Below are positions 6,767-33,993 of a DNA stretch of 36,987 bases, piece after piece. The notes below the pieces were generated by a model, which was not told the origin of the DNA, did not search any database, and saw only the letters and a program-made list of their open reading frames with translations. Position numbers and translations under genes: made by a program. The DNA is taken from assembly GCA_016793875.1 (NCBI GenBank), contig JAEULG010000087.1:1-36987 (forward strand), written 5' to 3'. The DNA comes from Rhodospirillales bacterium. Its GTDB lineage: Bacteria; Pseudomonadota; Alphaproteobacteria; Rhodospirillales; Defluviicoccaceae. Position 1 is the stretch's first letter; each line of letters opens with the position of its first letter.

Positions 6767-8002
6767 TTACTCGGCTGGTGTGTTGAGGATCTTCGCAACC
6801 TTGTTGAGCCGCAGCCGCGAAACCTCGGGCATGCCCGAGCCGAGCAGCGGCCGCAGGTAGAGCAGGAACTTGTCGGTGACGTCGTGGCCGTTGTCGGCGA
6901 TGAACTCCGCCGGCATCACCTTGGTCTTGGCGGCGATCTCCTTCAGATCGACGAGGTGGTAGTCGACCGAATAGAAGCCGGTGCGGTGAATGGTGACCGA
7001 GCCCGAGTGGTTGCCGGCGGAATTGCCGTAGTGGGCGTACTGCACCGCCTTCTCGCCCACCTCGCGGGCCTCCCGCTGGTCGACGTCGGAGACGCAGCCG
7101 AGGAAGGAGCGCTGCAGATAGCCGAAGGTATCGCCGCGCACACGCTTGATGTTGGTGTGGGTCTTGATGTGGTCGGTGAGCAGGTCGGCCAGCGCGCCGG
7201 TGCCGGACAGCTGGACGTTGCCATGGGCATCGCGCTCGACGTTCTTGGCGAGCTTGGTGGCGATGGGCTGGCCGCTCTCGTCGTGCACGCCCTCGGAGAC
7301 GGCGACGATGCAGCGGCCATACTTGTTGTAGATGGCGCTCACATCCTTGACGAACTGGTCGAGGCTGAACGCCCGCTCGGGCACGTAGATCAGGTGTGGG
7401 CCGTCGTCCTCGTACTTGCGGCCCAGCGCCGAGGCGGCGGTCAGAAAGCCGGCGTGCCGGCCCATCACCACGGCGACGTAGACACCCGGCAAGGCCCGGT
7501 TGTCGAGGTTGGCGCCGGCGAAGGCGAGGGCGACGAACCGCGCCGCCGAGGGGAAGCCCGGGGTGTGGTCGTTGATCACCAAGTCGTTGTCGATGGTCTT
7601 GGGGATGTGCACGCAAGTTAGCGGATAGTCGGCGGCCAGCGCCTGCTCGTGCAGGATGCGCGCGGTATCCGAGGAGTCGTTGCCGCCGATGTAGAAGAAG
7701 GTCTCAATGCCGTGCGCCCGCATCACCTTGAAGATCTCGGCGCAATACTTCTCGTCCGGCTTGTCGCGGGTGGAGCCGAGACCGGAGGTCGGCGTATTGC
7801 CGACCATCTCGAGGTTGTGGGTGGTTTCGCGGGTGAGGTCGAGGAAGTCCTCGTTGATGATACCGCGAACGCCGTGGTAGGCGCCGTAAACCCGCTCCAC
7901 CGTCGGCACCTTGCGGGATTCGATGACCGCGCCAACCATCGATTCATTGATGACCGCGGTGGGACCGCCGCCTTGGGCGACGAGAACCTTGCCGTGCAAC
8001 AT
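6767..8002 (-). CDS. pfp: Pyrophosphate-dependent 6-phosphofructokinase
   Basis: 411 residues from ATG 8002; an upstream in-frame extension is disregarded. The enzyme interconverts fructose 6-phosphate and fructose 1,6-bisphosphate, using pyrophosphate so that the step is reversible. The nucleotide/PPi loop reads GGGPTAVIN (residues 11-19). GGNDS follows at 106-110, with Asp at the position that is Gly in ATP enzymes. PKTIDND (134-140) has Lys where ATP-dependent enzymes have Gly, and MGRHAGF (180-186) binds sugar phosphate. The Asp plus Lys pair is the accepted signature of PPi use. PPi-type enzymes are known from Rhodospirillum relatives. The gene stands alone with its own terminator at 6667-6696. 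PPi rather than ATP use is inferred from these residues. Confidence 0.9.
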   Translation of the reverse strand: MLHGKVLVAQGGGPTAVINESMVGAVIESRKVPTVERVYGAYHGVRGIINEDFLDLTRETTHNLEMVGNTPTSGLGSTRDKPDEKYCAEIFKVMRAHGIETFFYIGGNDSSDTARILHEQALAADYPLTCVHIPKTIDNDLVINDHTPGFPSAARFVALAFAGANLDNRALPGVYVAVVMGRHAGFLTAASALGRKYEDDGPHLIYVPERAFSLDQFVKDVSAIYNKYGRCIVAVSEGVHDESGQPIATKLAKNVERDAHGNVQLSGTGALADLLTDHIKTHTNIKRVRGDTFGYLQRSFLGCVSDVDQREAREVGEKAVQYAHYGNSAGNHSGSVTIHRTGFYSVDYHLVDLKEIAAKTKVMPAEFIADNGHDVTDKFLLYLRPLLGSGMPEVSRLRLNKVAKILNTPAE

Positions 8003-8226
8003 GTCGCTTCTTGCCCCTCTCTCCCTGCTGCTGACCAGCGGGCAACCGGCACCGGCGAGCACTTTCGTCGCAGGCTGCGGTGCCCAGAGCTATCGAGGGG
8101 CGGACCGTAGCATGCCGCCGCGGCGGCGCGGAAGCGCGAAAACCGGCGCCGCGGTGCGCTCATCTCGTTCGAGGCAAGCCGGGAGTGAGAGACGACACGT
8201 GCTCCCGCCGCTAAGGCCGGATCGGC

Positions 8227-25829: not shown

Positions 25830-28607
25830 TTACGTCCCAGCAAGTTCGTCCTTCGTCCCGAAGGCATGGCTGGGCCCGGTCGCAAGCGGCACAGTGAAGA
25901 TGAAGGTCGCACCATGGCCGGGCTCACTTTCCACCCAGATTTGTCCGCCGAGGTGCTCGACGATGCCTCGGCAGATGGCAAGCCCAAGGCCGGAACCCAT
26001 CGGGTTGCCGGTACGGCCGGCACGAACCTGGTGGAACTTCTCGAAGATCTTCTCGTGCTCGTTGGCCGGGATGCCCGGTCCATTGTCGGCGACGCGAACG
26101 GCGACGGTGCCCTCCGCCTTGGTCAAGCCGACGCAGACCCTGCCGGTTCCGGCAGGCGAGAACTTCTGCGCGTTTGACAGCAGGTTGATGACCAGCTGGA
26201 TGAGCTGATCGCGGTCCGCCCGGATCAGCGGAATATCCGGCGGCAGCGCAGTCTCGATGGCAATCTGCCGCTCCTCGAACAATCCTCGCAGCGAGACGAC
26301 CGACTGATGGATGATCTCGCCGAGATTGACATCGGTTATCTGCCATTTCATCCGTCCGGTCTCGATCTTGGTCAGGTCGAGGACCTGGTTGATCAGCCGG
26401 GTGAGGCGCTCGCTCTCGCGAATGACGATGGTCAGAAAATGCTGACGCTCGGCGATGTCGAGGTCGGGACTGTCGTGCAGGATTTCCGAGAAGGAGCGGA
26501 TCGAGGTCAGCGGCGTGCGCAGCTCGTGGGTGACCGTCGATAGGAAATCGTCCTTGAGCCGGTCGAGTTCGGTCAGCCGCTCGTTTGCCGCCTTCAGCTC
26601 AGCCGTCGCGTTCTCCAGCGCCCGCGATTTCTGCTCGAGCTGGCGGCTGTACTCCAGCACCTGGCTGGTCTCGTCGAGGATCTGCATGATCTCCTCGACG
26701 CCAACCCCTTCGCCCTTGATCGTCGAGGCGACCATGACGCGGGCCGAAGCAGCCCCGATTGCGCCCGCCAACCGTCGTTCGACGAACTGCACGAGTTCGC
26801 CGTCGGCGAGGGCGCTGCTGTTCAGATCGATGCCGCGCCGGACGGCGTATTCGTTGAGCACCTCCTCGGTGCGCTCGCGCCCGAGGAAGCGCTCCGCCAG
26901 CGACCGCAGCTCTGGCAGCGAAACCGTGTGATGGAGCAACGCCGCCGCGGCGTTGCCGGCGTGCTGGAACACCTCGACGAACAGCGTCGACTGGATCCGC
27001 TCAATGGTGCTCTGCCGGTCGAGGAGCGAAACCGCGGCGAAGGCGCCGACATTGGCGAGAAGGCTCCAGAACAGCGAATGCGCGGTCGGGCCGAGGCCAT
27101 CCATCCCGAACAGCGCGTAGGGCTGCAGCAGGGCGATGCCGAAGGGGCCGGCATCGATGAAGCTCTCCGGCAGCCAGCCCGATCGTGCGAACGACGGCAG
27201 CAGCAGCGTGTAGGTCCACAGCAGGAAGCCGGCGGAGATGCCGGCAAGGGCGCCGTGCCGCGAGGCTCCCTTCCAGTACATGCCGAGGATCAGTGCCGGG
27301 GCGAACTGGGCCGCCGCGGCGAAGGACATCAGGCCGATGGAGACGAGGGCGTAGGATTCGCCGATGAGCCGGAAATAGAGGTAGCCGATCAGCAGGATGA
27401 AGCAGATGGCGCCGCGGCGGATGCCGAGGAGCAGGCCGGAGAGGTCGCGCCGCTCCGCCAGCTGCAGCCAAGCGAAACGCAGCAACATCGGCATGACAAG
27501 GTCGTTGCAGATCATCGTCGACAGCGCCACCGTCTCGACGATGACCATTCCGGTCGCCGCCGACAAGCCGCCGACGAACGCCAGCAGCGCCAGCGCTGGC
27601 TGCTGCTGGGCCATGGGGAGCGCCAGCACGAAGGTATCGGCATCAACGCCACCGGCGCGGAAGTGCAGCAATCCGGCCAGCGCAATCGGCAGCACGAAGA
27701 TGTTGATCAGCAGCAGGTAGAGCGGGAAGAGCCACAGCGCCTTGTTGAGGTGTTCTTCATCGACGTTTTCGACCACCGATACCTGGAACTGGCGCGGCAG
27801 GCAGATGATGGTCAGCATCGACAGCAAGGTGAACGGTATCCAGTCGGTGACCGGCTCCAGCGTCAGCAGCCGCGCCGTGTCTGGCAAGGAGGCGGCACGG
27901 CTGAACAGGTCGCCAAAGCCGTCGAACATCCCGAAGGTCACGAACAGGCCGACGCTGACGAAGGCAACAAGCTTGACGACCGACTCGAAGGCGATCGCGG
28001 CCACGAGGCCCTGGTGATGCTCGGTCGCATCGATATGGCGGGTGCCGAACAGGATGGCGAACAGGGCCATCAGCGCGGCGATCCACAGGGCTGTATCGCC
28101 GAACAGCGGCAGCACCGAAGAAGCGTCGGGCGCGCCGACCTCCGGGTAGTGCAGCAGCACGACAAAGCTGGCAGCGACCGCTTTGAGCTGCAGCGAGATG
28201 TACGGCATGATGCCGACAACGGCGATGATCGTCACGAGACCGCCCAGGAGGTGGCTCTTGCCGTAGCGCGACGAGATGAAGTCGGCGATCGAGGTGATCC
28301 GGTTCACTTTGCTGATGCGGATCATCTTGCGGAGCACGACCCAGCCGAGGGCGAACATCAGCGTCGGCCCGATGTAGATCGTCAGGAACTCGATGCCGCC
28401 GGAGGCGGCCCGGCCGACCGACCCGTAGAACGTCCAGGCGGTGCAGTAAACCGCGATCGACAGAGCATAGATCCAGGGGTTGGCGACCATCGTCCGTCCG
28501 GCCGCAGCCCTCCGGTCGCCCCAATAGGCAATGGCAAACAGCAGGAAGACGTAGCCGAATGACGCGGCGATGATCAGCCACGCCGGCAGGGCCGCGCTGC
28601 CGGTCAT
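25830..28607 (-). CDS. SLC5 sodium:solute symporter-STAC-histidine kinase (CbrA/CrbS-like)
   Basis: 925 residues from ATG 28607, which overlaps the preceding stop as TGATG. Residues 1 to about 520 are a sodium:solute symporter with about 13 membrane helices (R-I-T-S-I-A-D-F-I-S-S-R-Y-G-K in the core). A STAC region follows (about 545-660), linking transporter to kinase. A coiled coil and kinase come next: DHp TVTHELRTPLTSI with phospho-acceptor H694, N box NLLSNAQKF near 808, G1 DNGPGI at 841-846 and G2 GSGLGLAI at 871-878. There is no PAS or receiver. CbrA and CrbS relatives sense histidine or acetate/short carboxylates and control carbon use. Here the likely phosphate acceptor is the single-domain regulator at the head of the operon. 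Confidence 0.93.
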   Translation of the reverse strand: MTGSAALPAWLIIAASFGYVFLLFAIAYWGDRRAAAGRTMVANPWIYALSIAVYCTAWTFYGSVGRAASGGIEFLTIYIGPTLMFALGWVVLRKMIRISKVNRITSIADFISSRYGKSHLLGGLVTIIAVVGIMPYISLQLKAVAASFVVLLHYPEVGAPDASSVLPLFGDTALWIAALMALFAILFGTRHIDATEHHQGLVAAIAFESVVKLVAFVSVGLFVTFGMFDGFGDLFSRAASLPDTARLLTLEPVTDWIPFTLLSMLTIICLPRQFQVSVVENVDEEHLNKALWLFPLYLLLINIFVLPIALAGLLHFRAGGVDADTFVLALPMAQQQPALALLAFVGGLSAATGMVIVETVALSTMICNDLVMPMLLRFAWLQLAERRDLSGLLLGIRRGAICFILLIGYLYFRLIGESYALVSIGLMSFAAAAQFAPALILGMYWKGASRHGALAGISAGFLLWTYTLLLPSFARSGWLPESFIDAGPFGIALLQPYALFGMDGLGPTAHSLFWSLLANVGAFAAVSLLDRQSTIERIQSTLFVEVFQHAGNAAAALLHHTVSLPELRSLAERFLGRERTEEVLNEYAVRRGIDLNSSALADGELVQFVERRLAGAIGAASARVMVASTIKGEGVGVEEIMQILDETSQVLEYSRQLEQKSRALENATAELKAANERLTELDRLKDDFLSTVTHELRTPLTSIRSFSEILHDSPDLDIAERQHFLTIVIRESERLTRLINQVLDLTKIETGRMKWQITDVNLGEIIHQSVVSLRGLFEERQIAIETALPPDIPLIRADRDQLIQLVINLLSNAQKFSPAGTGRVCVGLTKAEGTVAVRVADNGPGIPANEHEKIFEKFHQVRAGRTGNPMGSGLGLAICRGIVEHLGGQIWVESEPGHGATFIFTVPLATGPSHAFGTKDELAGT

Positions 28608-28912
28608 CAATCCCGCCCCTCGCGTAACGCACGGGAACCCTCCGCCGGCTCGCCGCGGCGGCGACGTGCTTCGGACGCGCTCCTCGTGGAGAAAGCGATC
28701 AGCGCGATCAGCAGCGCCCAGGCGCCGAGCAGAAAGGCATACAGCGGCGGGATGCCGAAGACGAGGGAGCCAGCGCCGCGATCGAAGATACCCATCACCA
28801 GCGGGCTGAACAGCACCACGCCGAGGAAGAAGACACCCACCAAGCGCTCGCCCGCGCGCCCGGTGCCGCGGCCTGGCCGTCGTCCCGCGCTCTCGATGCC
28901 GTGCTTGACCAT
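28607..28912 (-). CDS. Two-helix membrane protein, DUF485/DUF4212-like symporter accessory
   Basis: 101 residues from ATG 28912. A basic N-terminus precedes two membrane helices (about 24-42 and 52-75) separated by an FDRGAGSLVFGIPPLY loop, then a charged Arg/Glu-rich tail. The size, loop and position directly before an SLC5-type symporter match small companions such as YjcH beside acetate permease ActP, though the sequence is diverged. A role in assembly or gating of the symporter-kinase is inferred. The start is 2 bases after the exonuclease-fusion stop and the stop shares a base with the kinase start. Coupled translation and fixed stoichiometry are therefore likely. Confidence 0.75.
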   Translation of the reverse strand: MVKHGIESAGRRPGRGTGRAGERLVGVFFLGVVLFSPLVMGIFDRGAGSLVFGIPPLYAFLLGAWALLIALIAFSTRSASEARRRRGEPAEGSRALREGRD

Positions 28913-28914
28913 CG

Positions 28915-31041
28915 TCAGATGCTCGCCTGCCGGGTCTTCGTCTGCATGATCCTCTCTGACACGGCGAGCGCCTGACCGAGGGTGTGGACGCCGTGCGCTT
29001 CCAGCATGTCCAGCATCTTCAGGAAGCAGCCGGCGGTGACGAGGGTATCACCGAGCGCCGTATGACGGTTGTGTACCGGTATCCCGAACCGCTGGGCCAC
29101 CACATCGAGATTATGCTTCGGCGTATAGTCGTGAAGAAAGCACGACAGCAACATCGTATCCAAAACCGCCATGTCGAACGCGACACCGCTTTCCGCCTCG
29201 TGCAGCTTGAGGAATTTCACGTCGAAGGCGGCGTTGTGGGCGACCAGAACAGCCTCGCCAGCATAGCTGCGGAACTGCGGGAGGACCACCTGGATCGGCG
29301 GCTTGTTCTTGACCATTTCGGCGGTGATGCCGTGGAAGCGGATCGATTCCTTGGGGATGCTCCGCCGGGGGTTGACCATGCGCTCGAAGGTCTCGCCGGT
29401 GAGCATCCTGCCGTTGACGATGCGCACGGCGGCGAGGGAGACGATCTCGTCGCCGCCCACCGGGTCCAGCCCGGTCGTCTCGGTGTCGAAGACGACATAG
29501 GTAAGTGACTTCAGCGGACGCTCGGCCAGTTCACCCAGGTCAAGCGGGCGGCGCAGCAGGTCGAAGTCATAGAACTCCGGGCGCGGCGGCACTGCCGGCA
29601 GCGCGGTTCCTGCCGCGCGCATGGCTGTCGGCAGCGGCAGCCGCAACCGGGCCCGGCCCGGGTGGTCGGCGAGGCTCCAGACGTCGGTCTTGTGCCGTTC
29701 GACGACGTCTCGCAGCGACAGCCCGCCCAGCACCTCCTCCTGCGGTTCCGTCAGCCAGCGGTCCAGTTCAGCCGCTGGCACCACCGGGCCCTCCCACGCG
29801 ATGTCGAGGTAGATCCACCGGCCGCCGGCCATTGCCTCCAGATCGACGCAGCGGGTGTTGTAGCGCTGGACGATGCGCACGATCAGCCGGTCCAGCAGCT
29901 CGACCAGCGAATAGCTGTCGCCGTGCAGCCATTGCGGCAAACCGAGGAGGGTCGCGGGGATGCCGCGCTGCTCGCGGAGCCGGTCGGCCAGATGCTGCAG
30001 CAGATTCGGCGAATAGATATCGCTCATCGGCCAGTGGCCGGTGATCACGTCGCGATACTGCGCCGAAAGCGATTCGAGCCGGGTGCACAGGAACTGGCTC
30101 TCCTGCAGCAGCACCTTCTTGAAGCTCGCCTGTTCCGCTGGCGCGAGGTTGGGGTCGGCCACCAGGATCTCGGAAGCCGCGCGCAGGTTGCCGACCGGCG
30201 CGCGGAGTCCCTCTGTCGCCTCGCGCAGCAGGCGGTCGCGCAGCGCCAGCGCCGCCAGTTCCTCGGTATTGTCCTCGAACGACAGCACATACCCGGCCGC
30301 GGACTCATCAGCCTCGATGATGAGGCTCATCCGACCCTGCAGGGTATGCCTGCCGTCGGTGGTCGAGCTGACTAGGGTCACGGTCGGGCCGCCGAGCGGG
30401 CTGTCGTAGCGGCCCTGCGCCAGTCGCGTCGTCAGACGGTTCAGCGCATGCACGATCGGTTGCGGAGTCAGAAAGCGGAATAACGACCGGTCGAGGCCTA
30501 TATCGCCGCCGATGTGCAGCAGCTGCACGGCCCGGTTGTTGTAGAGGAGGATGCGGTGGCCCATCGTGCAGACGATGACGCCCTCGTGCAGATCGAGCAG
30601 CACCGTCTCGAGCTGCGTCTTCTGCTGCGCGAGGCTCGCCGTCGCCTGCTCGATCGCCTCGTTGGTACCGGTGCGGGCGATGCCGAGTTGACGGATGAGT
30701 TCATTGACCGCTGCAGGCAGCCCGTCGAGTTGATGAACCTCCTCGATGTCGATGCGATAGTCCGATCGCGCCTGGACGACCGTCTCGATGCCCCTGACGA
30801 CGGCCGCCAGCGGCTGGGCAATGGCGTAATCGAGATAGGCCCACAGCACCGCGATCACCGCCACCAGGAGGAAGGCAATGCCGCCGCCGTAGACGATGAC
30901 GATGTCGCGGGCCTCGGTGCCGATGTCATCGGGCAGATTGCTGCCGATCAGCCAGGTCCCGGCGGCGACCGCAGCAAGCGTGGCGCAGGCAAGGGCGGTG
31001 AAGCAGGCGATCAGGAAAAGCCGGGGTGTCAGCGTCCTCAT
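28915..31041 (-). CDS. Membrane pseudo-histidine-kinase fused to DEDDh 3'-5' exonuclease
   Basis: 708 residues. Two N-terminal membrane helices (7-32 and 46-69) are followed by a HAMP-like linker (70-125), a coiled coil, a PAS-like domain (about 145-260) and a DHp-like helix pair (262-330). In the last of these, the kinase motif H-E-L-R-T-P-L reads E277-G-L-R-A-P-V, so the phospho-accepting His is gone; the ATPase part (about 350-470) lacks recognisable N and G boxes. The C-terminal 190 residues are a DnaQ-like exonuclease with all DEDDh residues: D519 and E521 (FDTETTG), D607 (HNAAFD), H660 and D665 (HTALGD). The protein would tether a nuclease to the inner membrane under sensor control. Its substrate, DNA, RNA or a nucleotide signal, is unknown. 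Confidence 0.88.
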   Translation of the reverse strand: MRTLTPRLFLIACFTALACATLAAVAAGTWLIGSNLPDDIGTEARDIVIVYGGGIAFLLVAVIAVLWAYLDYAIAQPLAAVVRGIETVVQARSDYRIDIEEVHQLDGLPAAVNELIRQLGIARTGTNEAIEQATASLAQQKTQLETVLLDLHEGVIVCTMGHRILLYNNRAVQLLHIGGDIGLDRSLFRFLTPQPIVHALNRLTTRLAQGRYDSPLGGPTVTLVSSTTDGRHTLQGRMSLIIEADESAAGYVLSFEDNTEELAALALRDRLLREATEGLRAPVGNLRAASEILVADPNLAPAEQASFKKVLLQESQFLCTRLESLSAQYRDVITGHWPMSDIYSPNLLQHLADRLREQRGIPATLLGLPQWLHGDSYSLVELLDRLIVRIVQRYNTRCVDLEAMAGGRWIYLDIAWEGPVVPAAELDRWLTEPQEEVLGGLSLRDVVERHKTDVWSLADHPGRARLRLPLPTAMRAAGTALPAVPPRPEFYDFDLLRRPLDLGELAERPLKSLTYVVFDTETTGLDPVGGDEIVSLAAVRIVNGRMLTGETFERMVNPRRSIPKESIRFHGITAEMVKNKPPIQVVLPQFRSYAGEAVLVAHNAAFDVKFLKLHEAESGVAFDMAVLDTMLLSCFLHDYTPKHNLDVVAQRFGIPVHNRHTALGDTLVTAGCFLKMLDMLEAHGVHTLGQALAVSERIMQTKTRQASI

Positions 31042-31068: not shown

Positions 31069-31446
31069 CTAGAGGCCGGCGTTATCGAGAAGCTGCTTGA
31101 CCTTGTCGGTGAGGTCGCGAGTCGAGAACGGTTTGGTGACGTAGTCGTTGGCGCCGAGGGCGATGCCTTTCTCGCGGTCGACCTCGCGGCCCTTCGCCGT
31201 CAGCATGATGATGTAAATGCTTCCCCACGCAGGATTGGCTCTGATCGTCTGGCAAACGTCGTAGCCGTCCCGCTTCGGGATCATGACATCGAGAAGAATA
31301 AGATCGGGAGCTTTGCTCTCTACCGCTGCGAGTGCCTCATCGCCATCGCGGGCTACACGAACATCAAAGCCGGCCTTCTTCATCAGAAACTGCAGTGACA
31401 GAACGATGTTCGGCTCGTCTTCCACGACGAGAATGGATTTCGCCAT
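31069..31446 (-). CDS. Single-domain response regulator (CheY-like receiver)
   Basis: 125 residues, a receiver domain with no output domain. Acidic pocket E9/D10, phospho-acceptor D53 (LILLDVMIP), T83 (MLTAKG) and K105 (YVTKPF) are all present, so it should be phosphorylated. The ATG 31446 follows GGGAGGAAGGAGG. It is the first gene of the minus-strand operon, 27 bases before the pseudo-kinase/exonuclease. The likely phosphodonor is the symporter-kinase at the operon's end. With no DNA-binding domain, it probably passes phosphate on or acts by protein contact, perhaps on the exonuclease fusion. A -10 candidate TATACT lies 67 bases upstream. Confidence 0.92.
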   Translation of the reverse strand: MAKSILVVEDEPNIVLSLQFLMKKAGFDVRVARDGDEALAAVESKAPDLILLDVMIPKRDGYDVCQTIRANPAWGSIYIIMLTAKGREVDREKGIALGANDYVTKPFSTRDLTDKVKQLLDNAGL

Positions 31447-31780: not shown

Positions 31781-32080
31781 CTATTGCGGGGCGGGCGCTG
31801 TCCGCTTACGGCTCCTGCTCTCCGACCGGTGTGAGGCCTGGCCGCCCTTGCGGCCGGCCTGCCGGGCCAGTTCCGGATCGCGTGAGAAGCTGCGATCGGC
31901 GCTGGCAACGCTCTCACCGCCCTTACGACCGGCCTCTGCGGCCAGCGCCGGGTCGCGTGCGAAGGTGCGCTTTTCTGCCGGGACGCTCTCGCCACCCTTG
32001 CGCGCGATCTCCCGCTGCTTCTCGGCATCCATCGCCGCGAAACCGCGGTGCGCCGCGTCGGTTCGATTGCGTTGGGGCAT
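31781..32080 (-). CDS. KGG-repeat stress protein
   Basis: 99 residues from ATG 32080, with GGAGG upstream. About three copies of a roughly 22-residue hydrophilic repeat carry the R-K-G-G core: IARKGGESVPAEKRTFARDP, AGRKGGESVASADRSFSRDP and AGRKGGQASH. This is the stress-induced KGG motif of GsiB- and con-10-like proteins, which are disordered and accumulate in general stress, desiccation or stationary phase. An N-terminal HRGFAAMD segment before the first repeat is family-typical. The C-terminus is Ser/Arg-rich and basic. It is divergent from ettA, 230 bases away, and upstream of the signalling operon on the same strand. The hairpin at 31711-31740 probably ends its transcript. Confidence 0.85.
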   Translation of the reverse strand: MPQRNRTDAAHRGFAAMDAEKQREIARKGGESVPAEKRTFARDPALAAEAGRKGGESVASADRSFSRDPELARQAGRKGGQASHRSESRSRKRTAPAPQ

Positions 32081-32310
32081 GACGGTCCTCCAGTTCGCCG
32101 GTTGTGCGGCGCCAACGTCCGGATTCCGCAAAATGTTCCTGGCGAAGGATCTTGAACCCTGCCCCGGCACTGGTCCGACCAGCCAGCGGCTAAGCCGCGA
32201 CGCACGGCCGCGGGGCGTGAGGCCCGTTCGCCTCCGGTTGCGGGAGCCCCCGGTGGCGGGCTAGAAACCAGCCGTCTCCACCCACCCGGCATCACGCGAG
32301 GACCAGAGCC

Positions 32311-33993
32311 ATGGCTGCGTATCAGTACGTCTACGTGATGAAGGGGCTGTCCCGGACCTACCCCGGCGGCCGCGAGGTCCTCAAGGGAGTGACCCTGTCC
32401 TTTCTGCCGGGAGCCAAGATCGGCGTCATCGGTGTCAACGGCTCCGGCAAATCGACGCTGCTAAAGATCATGGCCGGGCTCGATGGCGATTTTTCCGGCG
32501 AGGCCTGGGCGGCAGACGGTGCAAAGGTGGGGTATCTGCCGCAGGAACCGCAGCTCGATCCGGCGCTTTCGGTGCTGGACAACGTGCTGCTGGGGCTGGC
32601 GCCGACCAAGGCTTTGCTCGACCGCTTCAACGAGATCAGCGCCCGCTTCGCCGAGCCGCTCGACGACGACGAGATGGCGGCGTTGCTGGAGGAGCAGGGC
32701 GAGTTGCAGGAGAAGATCGACGCCGCCGGCGCCTGGGAGCTGGAGCGGACGGTCGAGATCGCCATGGACGCGCTGCGCTGCCCGCCCGGCGACGCTGATC
32801 CCGCCACCCTGTCCGGCGGTGAGCGCCGCCGGGTGGCTCTGTGCCGGCTGCTGCTGGAGCGTCCCGATCTGCTGCTGCTGGACGAGCCGACCAACCACCT
32901 CGATGCCGAGTCGGTCGCCTGGCTGGAGCGCTTCCTTCAGGATTACGCCGGCACGGTGATGGTGGTCACCCACGACCGCTACTTCCTCGACAACGTCACC
33001 GGCTGGATTCTCGAACTCGACCGCGGCCGGGGGATCCCCTACGAGGGCAACTACTCGGCGTGGCTGGAGCAGAAGCAGAAGCGGCTTGCCGTCGAGGAGA
33101 AGCAGGAGACGGCGCGGCAGCGCACGTTGGCACACGAGCTGGAGTGGATCCGCGCCAGCCCGCGCGCGCGCCAGGCCAAGTCGAAAGCGCGCATCCAGGC
33201 GTTCGAGACGCTTTACGCCCAGGCCGCCGACCAGGCGCCCGGCACCGCGCAGATTGCCATCCCGCCCGGCCCGCGGCTCGGCTCGCTGGTCATCGAGGCG
33301 GAGGGGCTGCGCAAGGCATTCGGCGAGCGGCTGCTGATCGAGGACTTGGGATTCCGGTTGCCGCCGGGCGGCATTGTCGGCGTCATCGGGCCCAACGGCG
33401 CCGGCAAAACGACGCTGTTCCGCCTGATCGTCGGGCAGGAGGCACCGGACGCCGGTTCCATCCGCATCGGCGAAACGGTGAAGCTCGGCTACGTCGACCA
33501 GTCGCGCGGCGCCCTCGATCCGCGCAGGAATGTCTGGGAGCAGATTTCCGGCGGTCTTGACGAGATCGAGCTCGGCAAGCGGCGGATGTCGAGCCGCGCC
33601 TACGTCGGCCAGTTCAACTTCCGCGGTCCCGACCAGCAGAAGAAGGTGGGCGATCTCTCCGGCGGCGAGCGCAACCGCGTGCACCTAGCGGTGATGCTGA
33701 AGTCGGGAGCGAACGTACTGCTGCTCGACGAGCCGACCAATGATCTCGACGTCGAGACGCTGCGGGCGCTGGAGGATGCGCTGGTCGAGTTTGCCGGCTG
33801 TGCGGTGATCATTAGCCATGACCGCTGGTTTCTCGATCGCATCGCCACGCACATCCTGGCCTTCGAGGGTGACAGCCGCGTCGTCTGGTTCGAGGGCAAC
33901 TACCAGGACTACGAAGTCGACCGCCATCGGCGCCTTGGTGCCGACGCCGACCAGCCCCATCGCATCAAATACAAGCCGCTCGTGCGCGGGTGA
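32311..33993 (+). CDS. ettA: ABC-F protein EttA, energy-dependent translational throttle
   Basis: 560 residues, the usual EttA length. It has two ABC ATPase domains on one chain and no membrane part. Domain 1 has Walker [10 protein letters not shown] (41-49), signature LSGGERRR and [12 protein letters not shown]. Domain 2 has GPNGAGKTT near 360, LSGGERNR and [11 protein letters not shown]. Between them lie an arm insertion and the basic interdomain linker ([17 protein letters not shown]). EttA binds the ribosomal E site and gates the first peptide bond according to the ATP/ADP ratio. The N-terminus M-x-x-Y-Q-Y-V-Y-x-M-K-G-L is characteristic. Start 32311 follows a GAGGACCAGAGCC tract. The gene appears monocistronic. 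Confidence 0.96.

Follow-up and report, generated by a model that had tools for sequence, protein, structure and literature searches.

DivL of Caulobacter crescentus binds DivK~P through its DHp domain without kinase or phosphatase activity, and the substitution R553A weakens this binding (PMC4211667). Because DivL works without either activity, there is precedent for a dead kinase with a purpose; in histidine-kinase modulators of the RetS type, too, the fold has a modulating role in signalling instead of a phosphorylating one. In P. putida, the RNase_T gene pp_0353 shares an operon, controlled by MxtR/ErdR, with a CBS-domain gene, and deletion of pp_0353 slows growth on pyruvate (PMC9927547). 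What has been reported of the PP_0353 protein is limited to its RNase_T assignment and its transcriptional control by this SLC5/STAC kinase system, and the published partners of the SLC5/STAC kinases, CrbR and RpuR, are LuxR-type DNA-binding regulators.

Here we describe a gene from a Rhodospirillales bacterium in which a dead histidine kinase is fused to an exonuclease, next to the genes for a response regulator that consists of a REC domain only and an SLC5-type kinase. It lies in a stretch of 36,987 nucleotides, which we call the window. The reading frame opens with an ATG at 31041, and an ORF check found strand and coordinates exact. Its domains and neighbouring genes are as follows.

28915..31041, minus strand: pseudo-histidine kinase / DEDDh exonuclease gene (708 aa; 90 full-length relatives aligned)
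30817..31041, minus strand: residues 1-75, two transmembrane helices (about 7-25 and 45-73) and a short loop, predicted from hydropathy
30637..30816, minus strand: residues 76-135, HAMP-like or coiled-coil linker, from a reading of the sequence only
30277..30624, minus strand: residues 140-255, PAS-like domain (sub-threshold PAS_8 in the window protein; weak-to-moderate PAS matches in relatives)
30046..30258, minus strand: residues 262-332, pseudo-DHp (E277 at the phospho-His site; R280 conserved)
29626..30024, minus strand: residues 340-472, degenerate CA domain (N-box Asn lost; G1 Asp replaced by W416)
29002..29511, minus strand: residues 511-680, DnaQ/PolC-type DEDDh exonuclease (RNase_T 1.9e-35; PDB 2p1j 6.2e-31)
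31069..31446, minus strand: REC-only response regulator, 125 aa, acceptor Asp53 present (Pfam Response_reg 2.3e-30; 27 bp upstream)
28607..28912, minus strand: small membrane protein, 101 aa (homologue L110 matches DUF3311 at E 0.0013, below cut-off)
25830..28610, minus strand: SLC5-type (CrbS/MxtR-like) sensor histidine kinase, 926 aa, intact H695 (HELRTPL), HisKA and HATPase_c
32311..33993, plus strand: EttA-like ABC-F ATPase, recurrent divergent neighbour (genomic context)

A Pfam scan of the window protein placed RNase_T at residues 516-671 (E 1.9e-35) and gave a weak PAS_8 match, with no match to HAMP, HisKA or HATPase_c. Among solved structures, the C-terminal domain matched the T. maritima PolC exonuclease (2p1j, E 6.2e-31) and E. 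coli DnaQ epsilon (1j53), and alignments to both assign D519 and E521 to Exo I, D607 to Exo II, and H660 and D665 to Exo III. An earlier note on this DNA had listed these five residues as intact and E277 as the replacement for the phospho-His; all six are present as named. Across the 90 full-length relatives, D519, E521, D607 and D665 are kept in 87 and H660 in 82, so a loss of the DEDDh residues from most orthologues, which was looked for, did not occur. With five catalytic residues and an RNase_T fold, the C-terminal half is, by its sequence, a DnaQ-like DEDDh 3'-5' exonuclease whose nuclease appears intact. It shares fold and catalytic residues with PolC and DnaQ epsilon but lacks polymerase or replisome parts and carries membrane and signalling domains instead. 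An anti-phage role was dropped: the PADLOC matches were to generic DEDDh models, and the gene context is unsuited.

The predicted transmembrane helices and the intact DEDDh site would also suit a membrane-tethered nuclease that degrades small RNAs, nanoRNA or DNA during uptake, as the earlier note had proposed. We regard this as very improbable. The closest solved relatives are the PolC/DnaQ proofreading exonucleases, with no oligoribonuclease among the matches, and the surroundings are those of a two-component and monocarboxylate-transport module (SSF/DUF294), where neither competence genes nor nanoRNA genes were identified. Moreover, given two predicted helices, about 20 residues would lie outside, and hydropathy suggests a cytoplasmic position for the nuclease.

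The middle domain is a histidine kinase by descent, because profile matches, profile-profile comparison and a fragment model agree. A profile of residues 250-476 from 40 members matched solved histidine kinases over DHp and CA (best E 3.4e-8; DivL 4q20, 4.7e-6), which places the domain in the histidine-kinase superfamily. In hhalign, the same region aligned over 206 columns with the kinase domain of its 926-aa neighbour (98.7% probability, E 1.6e-16), compared with 0.1% for the unrelated EttA used as a control. Matches to HisKA fell below the cut-off in 15 of the 40 members, and Pfam scans of the window protein and the members gave no match to HATPase_c. A 227-aa model of the middle fragment (pLDDT 67.6) shows a pair of long helices and, after them, a small alpha/beta domain; its best PDB matches were HK853 and DivL, and RetS structures were also among the fold matches. 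The superposition is loose overall (TM about 0.4), as expected if the domain orientation differs. A full-length model, for which the alignment consisted of the window protein and its orthologue L005, had a pLDDT of 39 and was kept out of the fold search.

The residues of this domain indicate that kinase chemistry has been lost throughout the family. Position 277 is E in 64 of the 90 full-length relatives, R in 10, Q in 4, D in 4 and T in 3, with singletons besides and His in none, which bears out the earlier note's reading of Glu277. The G1-box Asp is replaced by Trp (W416) in 90/90, and R385/R389 stand in place of the N-box Asn in the window protein. Thus, to judge by sequence, neither the phospho-acceptor His nor the N, G1 and G2 boxes of an active histidine kinase are retained. 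The remark that no N or G boxes are visible holds for the catalytic positions, but the CA fold itself is still detectable by profile, as a degenerate form of an ATP-binding-type domain; a comparison with kinase families that had been proposed as a check thus found kinase homology and no complete ATP-binding domain. None of the 90 relatives is an intact kinase-nuclease fusion. We do not claim that the pseudo-kinase derives from the neighbouring SLC5 kinase, which is nearest by profile, but the tree leaves the pseudo-kinase outside the SLC5 clade.

DivL is among the known systems closest to this arrangement. Both proteins have a histidine-kinase fold without the phospho-His, a PAS domain, a retained Arg three positions C-terminal to the missing His and an associated REC-only regulator, and both lack kinase activity, DivL by experiment and the window protein by its residues. 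The Arg in question, R280, aligns with DivL R553; it is kept in all 71 copies with an intact DHp hairpin and is E, Q or N in all 18 hairpin-deleted copies, and the other contact positions are family-specific. The two differ in that DivL lacks a nuclease and has CckA as its target, whereas the window protein ends in a DEDDh exonuclease and is encoded in an SLC5-kinase operon.

On the minus strand, the genes run in the order REC regulator, exonuclease fusion, 101-aa membrane protein and SLC5-type kinase, separated by 27 bp, by 2 bp and by an overlap. The window copy of the kinase matches HisKA and HATPase_c only, and the L005 orthologue also matches Pfam SSF (27.2 bits against a cut-off of 22.8); reading the SLC5 part from the orthologue, we take the 926-aa neighbour to be an SLC5 domain fused to HisKA and HATPase_c. 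CrbS/MxtR and RpuS have this kind of architecture, and the pseudo-kinase domain is most like the kinase domain of this neighbour; in place of LuxR-type partners, the locus encodes a nuclease and a regulator made of REC alone. Copies of the block occur repeatedly in Rhodospirillales and outside this order, in many families and classes, and relatives of the same architecture are spread across Pseudomonadota. A REC gene adjoins 60 of 90 members across that phylum and an SLC5 kinase gene lies within 6 kb of 39 of 90, although in a few members the REC is only 34-44% identical and possibly a different one. In a paralogue group (L002/L080/L083-L085/L087) and in L025/L026, the DHp is intact and no REC gene is adjacent. 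In other lineages, the exonuclease gene sits with DUF4212, an SSF transporter and DUF294/CBS, a context that fits the P. putida operon. PP_0353 is comparable by description: it too is an RNase_T protein, with links to a CBS-domain gene and an SLC5/STAC kinase system. The co-operonic REC and SLC5-kinase genes, which the earlier note did not mention, suggest what purpose the dead kinase has.

The conserved gene set suggests that a two-component signal controls the nuclease directly. In the explanation that we consider best, and that we judge to be close to evenly balanced, a DivL-like pseudo-kinase reads the REC protein and gates the fused exonuclease; binding, activity and substrate are all putative. 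The protein would be an exonuclease tethered to the membrane, and its regulatory half, a dead histidine kinase, would now receive signals. By analogy with CrbS/MxtR and RpuS, the SLC5-type kinase encoded downstream would sense carbon status, perhaps acetate or pyruvate, and phosphorylate the REC-only regulator encoded upstream. The regulator may then dock on the pseudo-DHp helices, presumably in a phospho-dependent manner like DivK~P on DivL, and the resulting change of shape would be passed to the DEDDh exonuclease, turning 3'-5' trimming of cytoplasmic RNA or DNA up or down. In the fuller version, the phosphorelay would have a nuclease as its end point: a fused pseudo-kinase reads REC~P and switches a membrane-tethered exonuclease, carbon status acts post-transcriptionally or at the level of DNA without a transcription factor, and reader and nuclease have been split naturally between paralogues of one family. 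We hold this version tentatively, at rather less than an even chance. Exposed DHp positions usually set the choice of partner; they read ANLRAAAE in the exonuclease family and TSIRSFSE in the neighbouring kinase. Because they differ, sequence leaves a REC partner common to pseudo-kinase and SLC5 kinase unproven.

The neighbouring kinase could itself be the target. If the pseudo-kinase formed mixed dimers with the SLC5 kinase or otherwise blocked it, as RetS does with GacS, it would be mainly a kinase modulator and the nuclease a second, separable output. RetS has no nuclease and targets another kinase, and its structures are among the fold matches of the middle fragment; in 11 of 12 genomes tested, no non-self protein matches the pseudo-kinase profile better than the SLC5 kinase, and SLC5-linked copies with a dead nuclease persist. 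We nevertheless find this reading unlikely: the exonuclease gene is adjoined by REC more often than by the kinase gene (60 versus 39 of 90), adjacency to the kinase gene needs 13 changes on the tree and adjacency to REC 6, and the pseudo-kinases fall outside the SLC5 kinase clade.

Paralogues in family f16 bear on the coupling of reader and nuclease, and eight f16 genomes carry both kinds of copy. The REC-linked copies (n=8), with the SLC5 kinase also adjacent in seven, keep the DHp hairpin and R280, and have lost nuclease residues (H660R in five, all five catalytic residues in three). The REC-less copies (n=18) keep DEDDh, have lost part of the DHp hairpin and carry E, Q or N at position 280. 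Consensus identity follows the same division, at 0.71 versus 0.34 for the DHp core and 0.53 versus 0.82 for the exonuclease in REC-linked and REC-less copies, respectively. In nine f16 genomes that have a hairpin-deleted copy only, we found no close REC (best about 45%) and no SLC5 kinase. The tree shows one event for the hairpin deletion and one for the catalytic losses, and the two kinds of copy form separate clades; because each loss is a single event, the complementary pattern amounts to essentially one comparison, on which independent-pairs tests have no power. It is strong as a pattern and weak as statistics. The earlier note had held that selection keeps the nuclease and the sensory scaffold but not kinase chemistry. 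The family-wide kinase loss, the conserved scaffold and the D-E-D-D residues in 87 of 90 support this, but selection does not always favour the nuclease, because these eight paralogues, three without all five residues and five without the catalytic His, have lost nuclease residues and kept the pseudo-kinase.

The REC-less hairpin-deleted copies also keep PAS and nuclease near consensus (0.77 and 0.82), as would be expected if the PAS-like domain directly sensed a cytoplasmic metabolite or redox state and gated the nuclease, with DHp and CA as an inert dimerization rod and REC serving another target. Several members give weak-to-moderate PAS matches, and PAS-exonucleases without a kinase-like middle exist (L135, L100, L101 and G200). 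Yet DHp and CA are conserved as well as PAS in the main family (consensus identity 0.84, 0.82 and 0.82), and an inert rod fails to explain the eight REC-linked copies that keep DHp while losing nuclease residues. We consider direct PAS sensing fairly unlikely.

Each part of the protein was known already; for the combination, a literature search covering open-access papers found no description. If the reading of REC by a pseudo-kinase is true, a nuclease joins the known outputs of two-component signalling, and information flow from response regulator to pseudo-kinase gains a second clear case. It would also suggest a role for an exonuclease gene repeatedly tied to acetate/pyruvate sensing, a question left by the P. 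putida work. Thanks to the complementary paralogues, ordinary genetics could test the reader and nuclease functions separately.

Several variants and neighbours were seen besides. A second full-length copy in the window's own genome (L002, G000:C10:34072-36132; 34% identity, E277 and DEDDh intact) has no adjacent REC gene and adjoins a TPR-protein gene. In L086, L095 and L096, kinase and nuclease residues are both lost and the gene still lies between REC and the SLC5 kinase; these doubly dead proteins are possibly pure adaptors. Shorter forms (L089-L093, about 294-355 aa) consist of the exonuclease and a short N-terminal part, and L139:7179-8687 encodes a related exonuclease domain that is joined to an EamA-type transporter domain and not to a sensor module. 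The Defluviicoccus SSA4 orthologue L005 has an apparent frameshift near its N-terminus (around 8001-8200; open frame from residue 65), which may reflect an error in sequencing the MAG. Family f11 has a gene for a calcineurin-like phosphoesterase (L113:7191-7979) immediately after the exonuclease gene, instead of the SLC5-kinase gene, which is located elsewhere in the genome. In many genomes, both within the order and outside it, the REC/exonuclease block has the EttA-like ABC-F gene as its divergent neighbour. This gene is probably outside the signalling unit, although EttA responds to energy charge and a functional link to the block is conceivable. Between the REC gene and EttA, at 31781-32170 of the window, lies a gene for a KGG-repeat (stress-induced acidophilic repeat) protein.
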